From NCBI GenBank assembly GCA_025363015.1, contig JANYEQ010000035.1:1-64000 (forward strand): a stretch of DNA of 64,000 nucleotides, given 5' to 3'. The notes under the pieces were generated by a model, which was not told the DNA's origin, did not search any database, and saw nothing but the letters and a program-made list of their open reading frames with translations. The position numbers were made by a program, and so were the translations under genes. This document shows, piece by piece, positions 5,575 to 43,734 of the stretch (its first letter is position 1; each line of letters starts with the position of its first letter). The stretch is from Bacteroidota bacterium. Lineage in GTDB: Bacteria; Bacteroidota; Bacteroidia; B-17B0; Aurantibacillaceae.

Positions 5575-6609
5575 ATGACTAAAAAAAAATCTAAAGTACT
5601 TTTAATTTACACGGGTGGTACCATTGGTATGATGCAGGACGCTCGTAGTGGCGAATTAAAACCTTTTGATTTTAAAAGTTTAAAAGAGCAAATCCCCGAA
5701 TTAAATAAATTCGAGATTGAGTTATCGTCCATTTCTTTCAAAGAGCCCATTGATAGCAGCAACATGCACCCAAAAGTATGGAGCGAATTGGTTATACTCA
5801 TTCAAAAAAACTATACTAAAGTTGATGGATTTGTAATACTTCATGGTAGCGATACAATGAGTTTTACAGCAAGCGCATTGAGTTTTATGTTAGAAAATTT
5901 GGCTAAACCAGTAATTTTAACAGGCTCGCAATTACCAATAGGAATGATAAGAACCGATGGTAAAGAGAATTTAATTACAGCCATTGAAATTGCTGGTGCT
6001 AAACAAAAAAATGGTAAGCCCATTGTAAACGAAGTTTGTATTTATTTTGAGTATAAATTATATCGTGGTAACCGAACATTTAAATATAACAGCCAGCATT
6101 TTGATGCCTTTAAATCGCCCAATTACCCTACTTTGGCAGAAGCTGGTGTAGATATAAAATACAATACAGTTGCTTTTTTAAAACAAAACAAAAAATCGTT
6201 AAAAGTCTATTCTATTTTAGATAATGATATTGCAGTTTTAAAATTATTTCCAGGTATTAGTAAAAAAATAACATCAGCCATCATTAATACACAGGGTATA
6301 AAAGCTATAGTATTAGAGACCTTTGGTGCTGGTAATGCCACCACGCAAAATTGGTTTATTGATGAGTTAAAAAATGCAATAGATAAAAATATTATTGTTT
6401 TAAACATTACGCAGTGTGCCGAGGGTAAGGTAATTCAAGGAATGTACCAAACTAGTTCGGCACTTAAAAAAATAGGTGTAATAGGTGGTGCAGATTTAAC
6501 ATTTGAAAGTGCTATTACTAAACTTATGTTTTTATTAGGACAAAATTTAAGTCATTCTCAAATAAAAAAACAATTACAGATAAACTTACGTGGTGAGTTA
6601 ACTCGCTAA
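5575..6609 (+). CDS. ansA: Type I asparaginase
   Basis: IYTGGTIGMM, ILHGSDTMSFTASALSFMLENL, LTGSQLPIG motifs. Confidence 0.92.
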   Translation: MTKKKSKVLLIYTGGTIGMMQDARSGELKPFDFKSLKEQIPELNKFEIELSSISFKEPIDSSNMHPKVWSELVILIQKNYTKVDGFVILHGSDTMSFTASALSFMLENLAKPVILTGSQLPIGMIRTDGKENLITAIEIAGAKQKNGKPIVNEVCIYFEYKLYRGNRTFKYNSQHFDAFKSPNYPTLAEAGVDIKYNTVAFLKQNKKSLKVYSILDNDIAVLKLFPGISKKITSAIINTQGIKAIVLETFGAGNATTQNWFIDELKNAIDKNIIVLNITQCAEGKVIQGMYQTSSALKKIGVIGGADLTFESAITKLMFLLGQNLSHSQIKKQLQINLRGELTR

Positions 6610-7664
6610 TGTATTTCTGAAAAGCGAGGGTTTGTAGTAAAACTATAATCGTTTAGGGTATTTAAAAAACTAATAAGATCTGATTTTTGTTGTATAGTAA
6701 TAGGATGTGGCGTTACCATAAACGGGTCTAAATTTTGAGTATTAGCTACTCCGTTTGTAAAAAAATCAATTACCTCAGAAAGTGTTTGAAAACGACCATC
6801 GTGCATATAGGGAGCTGTAAAACCTAAGTTACGTAGGGTAGGTACTTTAAATTTGTATATATCAGCCGTATTTTGCGTAATGTTATATCTGCCACTATCT
6901 TGATAAGCATTTATAGGTAAGCCCTTGTTCCTAAAAGTATAATCGCTAAATAAGGGCTCGGTGTGGCAGCCCGCGCAGTTAGTAGTAAACACAGCATAGC
7001 CATTATTTTCGCTCAGCGTAAAAACATCTTGCCCAGCTTTTACCTTATCGTATTTACTATTGTTAGAAACCATTAAACCCATAAATTGAGCAAAGGCACG
7101 TAACATACGTTGTGAGTTAATTAGGGTATCGCCAAAGGCTTTTTTAAATAGCGTTTTGTATTTTGTAGAATAAGATAAACGGCTAACAGCAGTACCTAAA
7201 TTTAAATTCATTTCTACAGGATTTGTGATGGGAGTAATGGCTTGATTTTCTAAATTGTTTACGGCACCATCCCACATAAGTTGGTTAGGCCACGTTAAAT
7301 TAAATAAAGCAAGGCTGTTGCGTTTGCCAATTACATCATTTACCCCATGGCTAAAGGTATGACTTGGACCGTTAGAAAATGCAAACGTTTGCTCGTGGCA
7401 ACTACCGCATGCCACAGTAGTATCTAGTGATAATAAAGGTTCATAAAATAAATAGCGCCCTAAGGTAAATCCATCGTAGGTTACTGGGTTGTTTTGAAAC
7501 ATGTAAGAAGGTGCAGGCCAGCCCTGGGGTACAATTGGTAAATAGATATTAGTAGTAGGTGTTGGCTCAGATTGTGGCGTTTCGTTTATTTTTTTTGTAT
7601 CTTTTTTACAAGAAAAAATAAATATTAAACTAAAAAGTAAAAAGTAAATTATTTTTGTGCGCAT
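6606..7664 (-). CDS. Di-heme cytochrome c peroxidase family protein, MbnH-like lipoprotein
   Basis: Two CxxCH motifs (CGSCHEQTFAF, CAGCHTEPLF); lipobox FSCKK; next to an MbnP homolog. Confidence 0.88.
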   Translation of the reverse strand: MRTKIIYFLLFSLIFIFSCKKDTKKINETPQSEPTPTTNIYLPIVPQGWPAPSYMFQNNPVTYDGFTLGRYLFYEPLLSLDTTVACGSCHEQTFAFSNGPSHTFSHGVNDVIGKRNSLALFNLTWPNQLMWDGAVNNLENQAITPITNPVEMNLNLGTAVSRLSYSTKYKTLFKKAFGDTLINSQRMLRAFAQFMGLMVSNNSKYDKVKAGQDVFTLSENNGYAVFTTNCAGCHTEPLFSDYTFRNKGLPINAYQDSGRYNITQNTADIYKFKVPTLRNLGFTAPYMHDGRFQTLSEVIDFFTNGVANTQNLDPFMVTPHPITIQQKSDLISFLNTLNDYSFTTNPRFSEIH

Positions 7665-7668
7665 AGTT

Positions 7669-8514
7669 TTAATGTATTACGGTTGTTACTAAAAACATAT
7701 CGGTATAATTATTTGCAATGGGTTTGCTAGAAGCCGGACTAATTGCTGTGGGAAGTGTAGCAAAGCTAATTGTGGTTGGTGTTTTTAAACATTCTTTTGC
7801 ATTAGCTTTTATAAATAGTTTAGAAATATGGTCGTTATCAACCACCAAATTGCTTGGAAGTGTAAGACTAACATTTTTTATGTTATTGGTTGCTCCTTTA
7901 AACCCGCCCACATGATACTCCACATTATGCCCACCAAAAGATGAAATACTAGAAGTGTACGCTTCAAATTTTAAAAAGATGTAACCTTGATTCCAATTCC
8001 AATACATATCCTTTAATGGGTCTAGTTGCCCTGTTTGAGCCCCCGAACAATTACGTGTGCTGTCAACACCAATCATATATTCAATGGCTGTATACGTGGC
8101 ATAAGGCACATTTTTTAAATTAAATTTACACGTATTTAGGCTATCACTAGCATCAATTAAATGATAACTTTCTGTTTCGGTATAATAACTACCATCTTGT
8201 TTTTTTAGCTTAATATTTGAGATATAATATCTGAATTTTGTAACCGAAAATGTATCGCCATAAGCACTAATATACTTTGGTGTTGACGGCTTATAAATAG
8301 TATCCTTGGCAATTTGTAAAATTACATTATCAGCCATATTGGTAATATTTATGGTTACGTCGTTTGTTGAAGCAGTAGTTGTAACTGTTGGTGCTCCGGT
8401 AGTTATGGTATTAACAACAACAGGGTCTTCTTCTTTTTTCTTTTTACACGAAAATAAATGTAGTACGATTAGAGTAATTAGTAGTTTGCTGGTAATTGTT
8501 TTAATGTTTTTCAT
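7669..8514 (-). CDS. MbnP family copper-binding lipoprotein
   Basis: Lipobox LFSCKK; DMYWNWNQGYIFLKFEA with WxW motif (codons 7993-8001); paired with MbnH-like gene. Confidence 0.85.
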   Translation of the reverse strand: MKNIKTITSKLLITLIVLHLFSCKKKKEEDPVVVNTITTGAPTVTTTASTNDVTINITNMADNVILQIAKDTIYKPSTPKYISAYGDTFSVTKFRYYISNIKLKKQDGSYYTETESYHLIDASDSLNTCKFNLKNVPYATYTAIEYMIGVDSTRNCSGAQTGQLDPLKDMYWNWNQGYIFLKFEAYTSSISSFGGHNVEYHVGGFKGATNNIKNVSLTLPSNLVVDNDHISKLFIKANAKECLKTPTTISFATLPTAISPASSKPIANNYTDMFLVTTVIH

Positions 8515-8532
8515 TTATGTTTGTTTTAAATA

Positions 8533-9366
8533 TTATTTATAAGCGTTAAAAAAATTATATTCTAATCGTAACGAAATGGTATTTGTGTTTAAGCGACTCA
8601 GATTTCCAAATAATTGATATTTATATACAACATCTACTCTAAATACACTATTTATAATACATTGTAGGGCAGGGGCAATATCTAAATAACTTTGTTTAGT
8701 ATTGGTATTTGTTTTTCCTAAAAATTCACAGTACAAGTTAAAATTTGGTTGATTATAATTTATATATTTTAAAGGTAATACTAATTGCCCAAACGACAAA
8801 GAGTAATTTAATACATTTGAAGCGGAATCATTTAAAACATTAGGCTTAATATTGGATATGCCTTTTATGTAACCAAAGGATGCAGATAATGCAGTTTTAT
8901 GCAAAAGTTGTGTAAAAATTACGCCTGTGGTTCCACCCGAATTATCTCCACCCAAATTAATTTCGTTACTATGTATAGCATTATTAACTAACGCACCTTT
9001 GCCATATAAAGCAATTCTAAAATGCGATTGAATATTATCAATAGAGTACAGCCTATATTTTAAATAAAAGCCACCGCCTTCAAATTTAAAATTTTGTTGG
9101 TGCATATTGCTCGAAAATATCAATGCGTGTGCCATCCATTTTTTAGTAATACCTACCATTGCTTCAATGCCAGTTCTAAACATGTTTGAACTACCTGCAT
9201 AGGTTAAATTATGTGAGCTAGTAGCATAGGGCATAAATTCGTTATTTAAACGAATACCAATAGACTTGGTGGCCATATTACTAGCAGGTTCGGTTAAAGG
9301 AAATAACTCTTGTGCAACTAAATTTACCGAAAATAATAACAAGCAATAAAATAATACTGCTCTCAT
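8533..9366 (-). CDS. Putative outer-membrane beta-barrel protein
   Basis: Signal peptide MRAVLFYCLLLFSVNLVAQ from internal Met of ORF 8533..9399; alternating-residue barrel-like sequence with terminal aromatic/NFFNAYK; cluster position. Confidence 0.55.
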   Translation of the reverse strand: MRAVLFYCLLLFSVNLVAQELFPLTEPASNMATKSIGIRLNNEFMPYATSSHNLTYAGSSNMFRTGIEAMVGITKKWMAHALIFSSNMHQQNFKFEGGGFYLKYRLYSIDNIQSHFRIALYGKGALVNNAIHSNEINLGGDNSGGTTGVIFTQLLHKTALSASFGYIKGISNIKPNVLNDSASNVLNYSLSFGQLVLPLKYINYNQPNFNLYCEFLGKTNTNTKQSYLDIAPALQCIINSVFRVDVVYKYQLFGNLSRLNTNTISLRLEYNFFNAYK

Positions 9367-9367
9367 T

Positions 9368-9865
9368 TTATAAGGTAATATTATAGCTATTTTGAACATT
9401 ATTTGGTTTTATTAAAGCAGAGTATTTTTTAAATTCTTTAGCACTTATAAAACCTTTATCAATTATTTTAAAAGGTACTATACCATTTAATATTTGTAAT
9501 TTTGTTGTAATAAAATTAAAAGTACTTTGGTTATAGCTAAAGGCAGAATTTGCTTCTACATTATAGTTTTTAAAATTATAAAATACATTTAAGCTAGCAA
9601 CCGAAAAGCCAGCGTCTTCAACTTTTAATTTTATAGCCTTAAAATCAACTAATTGGTTAGTTTTTAAAAAAATAATAAAGGTAGCTTTATCTAAATTTAC
9701 ACCAATACTATCTATAAAACTAAGTGTTTTTAATTGTTTGTGTATAGATTTTGAACACATAGAGCAAGTTAGTCCAGCAGCTTGTAGCTCTACTTTTACA
9801 TATTGTGCTTTAATAGTAGCTGTAAAAAACAGCAATATTATTAAGGTGATGATTATTTTTTTCAT
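9368..9865 (-). CDS. Exported heavy-metal-associated (HMA) domain protein
   Basis: Signal peptide then VELQAAGLTCSMCSKSIHKQL (CxxC metal site). Confidence 0.82.
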   Translation of the reverse strand: MKKIIITLIILLFFTATIKAQYVKVELQAAGLTCSMCSKSIHKQLKTLSFIDSIGVNLDKATFIIFLKTNQLVDFKAIKLKVEDAGFSVASLNVFYNFKNYNVEANSAFSYNQSTFNFITTKLQILNGIVPFKIIDKGFISAKEFKKYSALIKPNNVQNSYNITL

Positions 9866-10002
9866 TTTAAATTATTTTTAAATTAAATTAATTAAATTAT
9901 TACCCCATTAACAGTTAATGTGTTGGGTTTAAATAATGTATTTGTAAATACACTTTTAACTACTAATGCAAATTAGTAGCAATGTATTAAAATTGAAAAT
10001 AA

Positions 10003-10395
10003 TCAAATAATTAAAACTCTGTTTTTTAAATAGAGTGGTTTGCCGAATGAGACGGGCGGAGGATTTATATAATAAGTAATTACTGGTTGAGATGCAAGTA
10101 CATTATTTATGAAATTAGAAGTAGGCGAAACAGCAGTTAATATATGAGTAGTTTCAAAAAATTTAATTGAAACAGCCGCTTTGTGCGTATCGCTTATTTT
10201 TAGAAGAGTGGTAGTATTTTTGCAACACCCATCATCACCCATTTCTTCTTCATCAGCGCCACAACAGCCAGCTTCGTTAGTTTTCAGTAGCGAAACAGTT
10301 TTTAACTCGCCATCACAATAATGTAAATTAAGCGTTACACCGGATGCAGCTATAAAGTAAAAAAAACTAAAAAATATGAATAGATACTTTTTCAA
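10003..10395 (-). CDS. HYC_CC_PP family protein (Cys-rich exported protein)
   Basis: Signal peptide; LHYCDGEL...GCCGADEEEMGDDGCCKN...INPPP. Confidence 0.75.
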   Translation of the reverse strand: MKKYLFIFFSFFYFIAASGVTLNLHYCDGELKTVSLLKTNEAGCCGADEEEMGDDGCCKNTTTLLKISDTHKAAVSIKFFETTHILTAVSPTSNFINNVLASQPVITYYINPPPVSFGKPLYLKNRVLII

Positions 10396-31454: not shown

Positions 31455-31823
31455 GGGTCCGACCGGTTTTGACAGTGAGCGCATCAAATAAGTAAGCATG
31501 TAGAGCGTTGTAAGACGAGCTCTTTAAACTGAACTTTCAAAATTTTTATTTGGCGAAGAGAATTCTTACGCTATGGCTGCTTAATCTAGGATTTAGCAAC
31601 CGTTGCTTATTTCGGAGCTAAACTGCTCTGCGCCGATTTTTAAGTATCATAAATGCGTAGTTTGTTTTTAGAATGCTATTACTAAGAACAATATTAATAG
31701 CTAAGATAAAATTTGGTTTAAATTAACGCCTGATTTTGTATTAAAACCAAGTTAATTTTAAACGTGTAGAAAGCTTATTTTTTCCTTATTTGGACGAGAG
31801 TTCGAATCTCTCCGGATCCACCT
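31455..31823 (+). ncRNA. ssrA: tmRNA
   Basis: GGGTCCG acceptor 5' half pairs with CGGATCC at 31813-31819; T-arm GAGAGTTCGAATCTCTC; tag ORF GEENSYAMAA* at 31552-31584. Confidence 0.92.
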
Positions 31824-41191: not shown

Positions 41192-43054
41192 TTAAACCAA
41201 TACTAAAGGCACTTTTATATTGTGCCTTACGGTTTCTACAGTTGTGCCCAGTAAAATATCTTTAAATGTTTTATGGCCGTGTGTACCCATTACCAGCATA
41301 TCGCACTTGTTTTCTAGTACTAAATTAGGGATGGCTATTTTAGGATTTCCAAAGCCCAATTTAATTTCGGAAATAATATTTTGTTGTGCTAATTGTTGCT
41401 GATATTCTTTTAGTTTTTGTACGTCTTCTTCACGCTCTAAGTCAAAGGCATTTTCACCATATACTACAGCGTTTGTACTCTCGAGCACATGCATTAAAAC
41501 TAAAACAGAATTTCCGTTTCCAAATTGTATAGCTCTATTAATGGCTTTATTATCGCTATCGCTAAAATCAACGGTTACTGCAATTTTATTAAATAATTGT
41601 GTTGGCTCAATCATTAGTGGTTTTAACTCGTTGTGAAAGCCTTTGTTAGCCGTAGTTTTATGTTTAGTAATAAACGGAACTATTAAAATATATAACAGCA
41701 TTAAAAAACAAAATACGCAAGCGGGCACTACTGTAAAACTCATTAAAACAGGGCTCTGTGAATTAACAATGAGATTAGAAATTTCGGCATATACTAATTT
41801 AATATTTAACGAAATAATGGTTATGGCTGCAATCCACGATGCAATTTTTTGCCATAAAGGAATTACAAAATCGCCCATCTTTTTTTTATCGCTTACAAAA
41901 TGAATTAAAGGAATAATAGCAAAACCCAATTGTAAACTTAAAATTACTTGGCTAAAAATTAGTAGCTTACCTGTGGCTGATTCGCCCAAATAAAACAACA
42001 CTAAAAGGGCGGGTACTATTGCTATTAAACGGGTTAATAAACGCCTAATCCACGGTTGTAAGCGTAAATTTAAGTACCCTTCCATTACCACTTGTCCGGC
42101 CAAAGTACCAGTAATGGTTGAACTTTGCCCAGCTAAAATTAAAGCCACTGCAAATAAAATAGGTGCTAAGGTACTGCCTAACATAGGTGCCAGTAATTGA
42201 TGTGCGTCTTGTATTTCAACTACATCGTGCTTACCGTTATTATAAAAAGTAGTAGCCGCTAAAATTAAAATAGCCGCGTTTACAAATAACGCTAGGTTAA
42301 GAGCAATAGAACTATCAATTATATTAAAGCGTATAGCTTTTTTAATACCAGTTGGCGTTCGGTTAAATTTACGGGTTTGTACTAAGGAACTATGCAAATA
42401 CAAATTGTGCGGCATTACGGTAGCACCAATAATACCAATAGCTATGTACAAGGCTTCGTCGTTTTGAATGAACGGAATTAAACCATTAAGTATTTCACTT
42501 CCATTGGGTTTGGCAATAAATAATTGAATAAAAAACGAAGCAGCAATTAATAATACTAAACTAATGATAAAGGCTTCTAATTTACGAATGCCTTTGTTTA
42601 ATAGAAATAATAAAATAAAACTATCAAATACAGTAATACAAACGCCCATTAAAATACTTACACTCGGAAACAGTAAATGTAACCCAATAGCCATACCAAT
42701 AACTTCGGCTAAATCGCATGCTGCAATGGCAATTTCGGCTAAAATATATAAAAATAAATTTACAAAACGTGGGTAGTTTTCGCGCGATGCTTGTGCTAAA
42801 TCTTTGCCGCTTACTATACCCAAACGGGCGCAGTGGCTTTGTAATAGCAAGGCAATTAAATTGCTCATTACTAATACCCACAATAAATTATAACCAAATT
42901 TACTTCCGCCGGCTATATCCGTTGCCCAGTTGCCAGGGTCCATATACCCTACGCTAATCATATAGGCAGGACCTAAAAAGGCTAGTAATCGCCTAAACGA
43001 ACTGCTTTTATTTGTGTTTACACTGGCGTTAACTTCTTCTAAGGACTTATTCAT
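41192..43054 (-). CDS. mntH: Nramp divalent metal transporter fused to C-terminal universal stress protein domain
   Basis: VGYMDPGNWATDIAGGS, GATVMPHNLYLHS; C-terminal IAVTVDFSDSDNKAI...VMGTHGHKTFKDILLGTTVETV. Confidence 0.92.
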   Translation of the reverse strand: MNKSLEEVNASVNTNKSSSFRRLLAFLGPAYMISVGYMDPGNWATDIAGGSKFGYNLLWVLVMSNLIALLLQSHCARLGIVSGKDLAQASRENYPRFVNLFLYILAEIAIAACDLAEVIGMAIGLHLLFPSVSILMGVCITVFDSFILLFLLNKGIRKLEAFIISLVLLIAASFFIQLFIAKPNGSEILNGLIPFIQNDEALYIAIGIIGATVMPHNLYLHSSLVQTRKFNRTPTGIKKAIRFNIIDSSIALNLALFVNAAILILAATTFYNNGKHDVVEIQDAHQLLAPMLGSTLAPILFAVALILAGQSSTITGTLAGQVVMEGYLNLRLQPWIRRLLTRLIAIVPALLVLFYLGESATGKLLIFSQVILSLQLGFAIIPLIHFVSDKKKMGDFVIPLWQKIASWIAAITIISLNIKLVYAEISNLIVNSQSPVLMSFTVVPACVFCFLMLLYILIVPFITKHKTTANKGFHNELKPLMIEPTQLFNKIAVTVDFSDSDNKAINRAIQFGNGNSVLVLMHVLESTNAVVYGENAFDLEREEDVQKLKEYQQQLAQQNIISEIKLGFGNPKIAIPNLVLENKCDMLVMGTHGHKTFKDILLGTTVETVRHNIKVPLVLV

Positions 43055-43734
43055 TTTTTACTTTCTACCAGAATATTACTGGCTACTTTACTACTAAAAA
43101 ATAAAGTGTGTTTGTTATTAATTTTCACTTTGTATAAATTATCAAAACTATTAATGTCTTCTACTTTAATAACATCACCTATTTTTAAACCTATTAATGT
43201 TAAGTGCTGCAAAAACTCTTTACTATGTTCGCAAACACCCATTAATATATAGTTTCCTTTTTTTGTGAATGTAACTAAAGGCTTGGCTTTTATACTGTTT
43301 ATTTGCCCATTTGAATTTGGAATAGGATCGCCATGAGGATCAAATTTAGGTTCGCCTAAAAATTTATCTAAACGGTCTATTAATTCATCGCTGTGAATGT
43401 GCTCTAACTGCTCAGCAATATCGTGTACTTCATCCCATTTAAAGTTTAATTTTTCTAATAAAAATACTTCCCACAAACGGTGTTTACGTACGATTTTTAT
43501 CGCTAATTTTTGTCCTTTGGCAGAAAGAGTAACTCCTTTGTACTTTTGATAATTGATTAGTTTTTTGTCCGCTAAACGAATAAGCATATCTGTAACAGAA
43601 GCCGCTTTGTTATTAAAATAATTTGATATTTCGTTCGTAGAAACATCTTGAGTAGCTGATTTTGAGGCTAGAGAATAAATAGCTTTTATATAATTTTCTT
43701 CGGTAAACGAAATAATCATAACGCAAAAATACAA
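43051..43734 (-). CDS. DtxR/MntR family metal-dependent regulator with FeoA-type C-terminus
   Basis: TEENYIKAIYSLA; HRLWEVFLLEKLNFKWDEVHDIAEQLEHI; overlaps mntH start. Confidence 0.9.
   Translation of the reverse strand: MYFCVMIISFTEENYIKAIYSLASKSATQDVSTNEISNYFNNKAASVTDMLIRLADKKLINYQKYKGVTLSAKGQKLAIKIVRKHRLWEVFLLEKLNFKWDEVHDIAEQLEHIHSDELIDRLDKFLGEPKFDPHGDPIPNSNGQINSIKAKPLVTFTKKGNYILMGVCEHSKEFLQHLTLIGLKIGDVIKVEDINSFDNLYKVKINNKHTLFFSSKVASNILVESKK

Follow-up and report, generated by a model that had tools for sequence, protein, structure and literature searches.

Within the 64,000-nucleotide stretch of contig JANYEQ010000035.1 analysed here (the window), which comes from a draft Bacteroidota metagenome-assembled genome (MAG) of 143 contigs, positions 6606-10395 hold five open reading frames (ORFs) on the minus strand. 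These encode a HYC_CC_PP protein, an exported heavy-metal-associated (HMA) domain protein, a putative outer-membrane barrel, an MbnP lipoprotein and an MbnH di-heme lipoprotein (Table 1), exactly as laid out in a preliminary description of the locus; the barrel ORF, 8533-9399, has a better start at 9366. Gaps of 137 bp (HYC-HMA), 1 bp (HMA-barrel), 18 bp (barrel-MbnP) and 4 bp (MbnP-MbnH) separate consecutive genes.

Table 1. Genes, motifs and other features of the MbnP/MbnH locus, in window coordinates (aa, amino acids).
Feature	Position	Strand	Basis or remark
HYC_CC_PP-family Cys-rich exported protein, 130 aa, TTG start	10003..10395	-	NF047658, 47 bits (cut-off 28)
Perfect 8-bp inverted repeat, CTACTAAT-TTGC-ATTAGTAG	9960..9979		Inside the 137-bp HYC-HMA gap
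Exported HMA-domain protein	9368..9865	-	PF00403, E 7.6e-8
Putative outer-membrane beta-barrel, 277 aa	8533..9366	-	Signal peptide; HMA-gene partner
MbnP lipoprotein, 281 aa, lipobox Cys23	7669..8514	-	PF20243, E 7e-49, 167 bits
WxW motif of MbnP, W172-N-W174	7993..8001	-	Both Trp invariant in 23 homologues
MbnH-like di-heme lipoprotein, 352 aa, lipobox Cys19	6606..7664	-	PF03150, E 6e-48, 164 bits
First heme site of MbnH, CGSCH, aa 86-90	7395..7409	-	Invariant among 98 homologues
Second heme site of MbnH, CAGCH, aa 230-234	6963..6977	-	Invariant among 98 homologues
Codon TTT of MbnH, Phe302 at the axial-ligand Tyr position (MauG Tyr294)	6759..6761	-	Alignments with cytochrome c peroxidase (CCP)/MauG structures

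The identities first given to MbnP and MbnH hold at the level of family and fold. Both proteins score above the Pfam cut-offs for their domains (CCP_MauG in MbnH). An AlphaFold model of MbnP (AF2, 23 relatives; predicted local distance difference test score, pLDDT, 85) returned the six chains of 7L6G, the MbnP of Methylosinus trichosporium, as its only significant matches in the PDB (E 7e-9); sequence searches, profiles included, found no solved relative, and 7L6G was reached by the fold search only. The corresponding model of MbnH (21 relatives, pLDDT 82) has its best fold match in 6E1C, a MauG-like protein of microbial copper homeostasis (E 1.5e-22), followed by MauG and CCPs. MbnP misses the curated cut-off of TIGR04052 (44 vs 140 bits), and MbnH matches TIGR04039 with an E of 1e-62 yet also falls under its cut-off (212 vs 363 bits); all 21 aligned Bacteroidota relatives of MbnH likewise match TIGR04039 (best E 4e-76). 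Because both proteins lie under the NCBIfam equivalog cut-offs, their sequences mark them as divergent family members and not equivalogs. The predicted lipid anchors can be read straight from the sequence, as LFSC (C23) in MbnP and IFSC (C19) in MbnH.

The WxW motif reported earlier in MbnP is present within YWNWNQGY at 8004-7981. In Methylosinus MbnP, the first Trp of this motif is reportedly oxidised to kynurenine, according to work in PNAS from 2021. The window MbnP retains the residues of the paired type (SYHLID, MYWNWNQGY and YHVGGF), including the conserved histidines, and this retention suggests that the site is still in use. Two candidate sequence markers of MbnP proteins encoded without MbnH were rejected. 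Loss of the HxGG histidine holds for two paralogues of this genome (C19, C6) and fails for most solo copies. An acidic residue in WxW is found within the genus in 0 of 43 paired and 17 of 20 solo proteins (p 1e-12), with p 0.45 in the wider class, and marks one clade with no general rule. A genus-level MbnP clade lacks an adjacent MbnH and has WDW or WEW in most members instead of W(A/S/T/N)W; it includes L082, L083, L085, L090, L096-L098, L101-L102, L104, L107-L108, L111, L115-L117 and L124.

MbnH retains, besides both heme sites, the proposed peroxide-site residues Q141, P145 and E151 (MauG Gln103, Pro107 and Glu113) and the inter-heme W131 (MauG Trp93), a correspondence inferred from equal spacing and CCP alignments. 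Position 131 is His (FMHDGG) in 24 of the 98 homologues, among them the C94 copy of this genome. At the axial-ligand position, the Tyr of the six-coordinate heme is absent and is replaced by Phe302. Residue 302 aligns with Met of 3O5C and 4AAL and with Tyr of 6E1C, and by the MauG chain coordinates (296 opposite 304) it corresponds to Tyr294, a residue conserved in all MauGs, where CCPs have Met or His (PMC7567364). Among 98 non-redundant homologues this position is Tyr in 95, His in two and Phe in the window protein alone; the C94 and C39 MbnH paralogues of the same genome retain Tyr. The site reads IDYH in L176 and L177 (also L228:5619-6677), with His for Tyr; a shifted alignment could explain this, or a His ligand of the kind seen in CCPs. 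Since S85A is the only other deviation among the 57 columns conserved in at least 95% of homologues, the alignment indicates that the MbnH gene is not decaying. Replacement of the corresponding Tyr in BthA (Y463H, Y463M) removes the bis-Fe(IV) feature and leaves peroxidase turnover intact, and MauG Y294H also loses bis-Fe(IV) (PMC6405878). The preliminary description invoked the conversion of Trp to kynurenine by Methylosinus MbnH; in the window the WxW substrate is there, but with Phe at the axial position, and with Tyr replacements abolishing bis-Fe(IV) in MauG and BthA, conversion by this MbnH is doubtful.

The remaining three genes give the locus a copper context. The HMA protein passes the Pfam cut-off for PF00403; Cys34 and Cys37 of its metal-binding motif GLTCSMCS are invariant across 17 homologues, and 10 of 40 genomes from the genus encode a homologue. 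Barrel homologues are present in 25 of 396 Bacteroidota genomes, and in 20 widely fetched barrel loci an HMA gene directly adjoins the barrel in 18 and HYC_CC_PP lies within ~2.5 kb upstream in nine. The barrel itself has no family match and no PDB profile match, and OMP_b-brl is matched by one of its 19 homologues (E = 0.004); the outer-membrane label given to it earlier is thus likely, on weak support. The trio recurs in the same order in Bacteroidota copper islands, in line with the copper context initially proposed for the HMA and HYC genes. HYC_CC_PP has two copies in the whole genome, each within ~4.5 kb of an MbnP gene.

A neighbourhood survey of MbnP/MbnH in Bacteroidota, which the preliminary description had called for, was made on a sample of draft genomes. 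A tree built on 68 MbnP rows groups the window protein in one clade (support 100/99) with L079 of the same genus, L048 from a Bacteroidia MAG and the C19 copy of its own genome, and all four members adjoin copper or heavy-metal resistance genes. The L048 gene is accompanied by HYC_CC_PP, HMA, an AraC-type regulator and multicopper oxidases, and the L079 gene by an RND adaptor and a heavy-metal P-type ATPase. The HMA-barrel pair lies near MbnP/MbnH in two further genomes with layouts that differ from the window: in L226 it is divergent from MbnP-MbnH, and L260:181-13838 (G018 C12) is one large copper island with MbnP-MbnH-MbnH (a divergent MbnP lineage), HYC, a multicopper oxidase and HMA-barrel. 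The copper context of the orthologues is not universal, because those of a sister genus (L223, L224) have MbnP and MbnH paired among housekeeping genes.

Across the whole genome, MbnP is encoded by six genes and MbnH-like proteins by four. C94 and C39 carry adjacent MbnP-MbnH pairs. On C19, an MbnP without MbnH belongs to a copper island that also encodes two multicopper oxidases, a P-type ATPase, an HMA lipoprotein, DUF3347 and the second HYC_CC_PP of the genome; on C6 (L013:677-3119), two tandem MbnP genes without MbnH, one lacking WxW, are interleaved with small CH-motif lipoproteins. An MbnH-like gene on C81 (L016:8071-11767) is followed by one small ORF and a gene resembling a TonB-dependent receptor; no MbnP gene lies close by. 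The absence of methanobactin genes, noted previously for the window, holds both nearby and genome-wide for MbnB/MbnC and the precursor: the sole MNIO gene (C94) scores 393 bits as HvfB, over the cut-off, and 57 vs 325 bits as MbnB. It sits in an HvfABCX/bufferin-type cluster for a copper-binding ribosomally synthesized and post-translationally modified peptide (L286:5041-7605), ~35 kb from another MbnP/MbnH pair; bufferins reportedly aid growth under copper stress (PMC12452194). That methanobactin genes are absent is no surprise, since published work describes MbnP/MbnH pairs as conserved well outside the methanobactin producers (PMC3621798).

The pair shares with that of M. trichosporium OB3b (TIGR04052/TIGR04039; 7L6G, 6E1C) adjacent genes, the MbnP fold, WxW and two CxxCH hemes, and differs from it in its lipoprotein anchors, the lack of a methanobactin operon, its copper-tolerance neighbours, scores below the equivalog cut-offs and the change of the axial Tyr to Phe. 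With MauG (3L4M; Y294H mutant 3ORV) MbnH has in common the di-heme fold, the inter-heme Trp and the proposed Gln/Pro/Glu peroxide-site residues, whereas its substrate, genomic context and the Phe at the Tyr294 position are different. The methanotroph systems CorA/CorB and MopE/SACCP likewise encode a copper protein with a di-heme partner, and CorA and MopE have a Trp-derived kynurenine at the copper site. Copper islands of Bacteroidota (L142-L148, L260 and C19 of this genome) contain HYC_CC_PP, HMA, barrel, multicopper oxidase, DUF3347 and P-type ATPase genes and share the HYC-HMA-barrel order; they are usually without MbnP/MbnH, whereas the window cluster is without a multicopper oxidase, ATPase or regulator.

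On balance, we lean towards reading the five genes as an envelope copper-tolerance operon. MbnP would be a lipid-anchored periplasmic or outer-membrane protein binding copper as Cu(I), and MbnH its lipid-anchored di-heme partner of the MauG/MbnH branch, which would oxidise the first Trp of WNW with peroxide, a step that is doubtful in this copy; alternatively, the other two MbnH copies that are paired with an MbnP (C94 and C39) may mature this MbnP in trans, or it may not carry kynurenine. The HMA protein may take up copper in the periplasm, the barrel may pass copper or a ligand across the outer membrane, and HYC_CC_PP could act as a Cys-rich accessory, so that the five products would jointly sequester or relay excess envelope copper. 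Behind this reading stand the family and fold assignments, the tight packing of the last four genes, the metal-resistance neighbours of the MbnP clade, the recurrence of HMA-barrel, often after HYC, in copper islands and near MbnP-MbnH in L226 and L260, and the nearness of both HYC_CC_PP genes to an MbnP gene. Copper capture or relay had been suggested earlier; its copper context stands, but tolerance or buffering is more likely than capture, given that copper-resistance islands house both the HYC/HMA/barrel trio and the nearest relatives of this MbnP. Several points weigh against a tolerance operon. The choice between tolerance and acquisition draws on gene neighbourhoods, the window cluster contains no copper sensor or copper pump, and the HYC-HMA-barrel-MbnP-MbnH order was found in the window only among the loci searched, so the five genes are no conserved unit. 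In addition, methanotroph relatives of the CorA/MopE type are copper-repressed and proposed for uptake, CorA being a surface Cu(I) protein whose operon also encodes a di-heme protein (PMC3912023). On that model, the main functional alternative, a surface MbnP would capture scarce Cu(I) and the barrel and HMA proteins, which would suit a relay, would pass it inward; we consider this unlikely, since the window MbnP clade and the trio have multicopper oxidases and metal P-type ATPases as neighbours, and no TonB-dependent receptor was found in the cluster. Chance adjacency of the copper trio to the MbnP/MbnH pair would account for the unique gene order, for the lack of an MbnP within ~6 kb in 19 of the 20 widely fetched barrel loci and for the lack of HMA-barrel genes at all fetched MbnP loci except the window and L226. 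It is nevertheless rather improbable, given the shared strand, the short barrel-MbnP gap, the recurrence of the association, differently arranged, in L226 and L260, and the position of the closest MbnP relatives in copper or metal islands, even without HMA-barrel.

The axial Phe raises a further possibility within a dedicated copper-tolerance operon, that this MbnH is a natural variant without the Tyr-His six-coordinate heme and the bis-Fe(IV) route, acting as a peroxidase or electron shuttle and not forming kynurenine, and that its MbnP binds copper with no self-made kynurenine, being either unmodified or matured in trans by a paralogous MbnH. The singular Phe302 in a protein that appears otherwise constrained, the retained peroxide-site and inter-heme residues, the peroxidase activity kept by the BthA mutants and the intact Tyr of the C94 and C39 paralogues all fit such a variant; however, His and Met are the replacements characterised, rather than Phe, another residue could ligate the iron, and the paired-type residues kept by MbnP argue that the site is still made, leaving this possibility a tentative one. 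A base-calling or assembly error, with an ordinary MbnH as the true protein, seems distinctly improbable. A single base (TTT to TAT) within a run of seven T would restore Tyr302, and no second strain spans the site, L048 ending inside MbnP; against an error, the reading frame is intact, the flanking residues align and position 301 differs too (Phe, usually His), though Phe at 301 occurs in other homologues.

Around the cluster, a plus-strand asparaginase gene (identified by Pfam) converges on MbnH with an overlap of four bases (6606-6609), and thymidine kinase is encoded upstream of HYC. The inverted repeat in Table 1 is, speculatively, a possible operator; as the operator of a regulon it was rejected, the genome holding a single exact match and so no visible regulon. 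A TANNTTTG promoter box upstream of HYC (10411-10404) was discarded as uninformative, with ~70 matches per strand in the window. Elsewhere in the window, a FeoA-domain DtxR-family repressor adjoins an Nramp-Usp fusion transporter (41192-43734), probably for manganese or iron uptake, and a transfer-messenger RNA with the tag GEENSYAMAA lies at 31455-31823.

The pairing of MbnP with MbnH and its link to copper are already known, MbnP/H-like genes having been described in copper-related operons (PMC9426467); the axial Phe in MbnH and the joining of the pair with the HYC/HMA/barrel copper trio are new. One MbnP/MbnH lineage is now placed among Bacteroidota copper-tolerance genes, and kynurenine formation in such pairs is not to be assumed from gene names. 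The Phe302 MbnH offers a natural test of the need for the axial tyrosine in protein tryptophan oxidation by the MauG/MbnH family.

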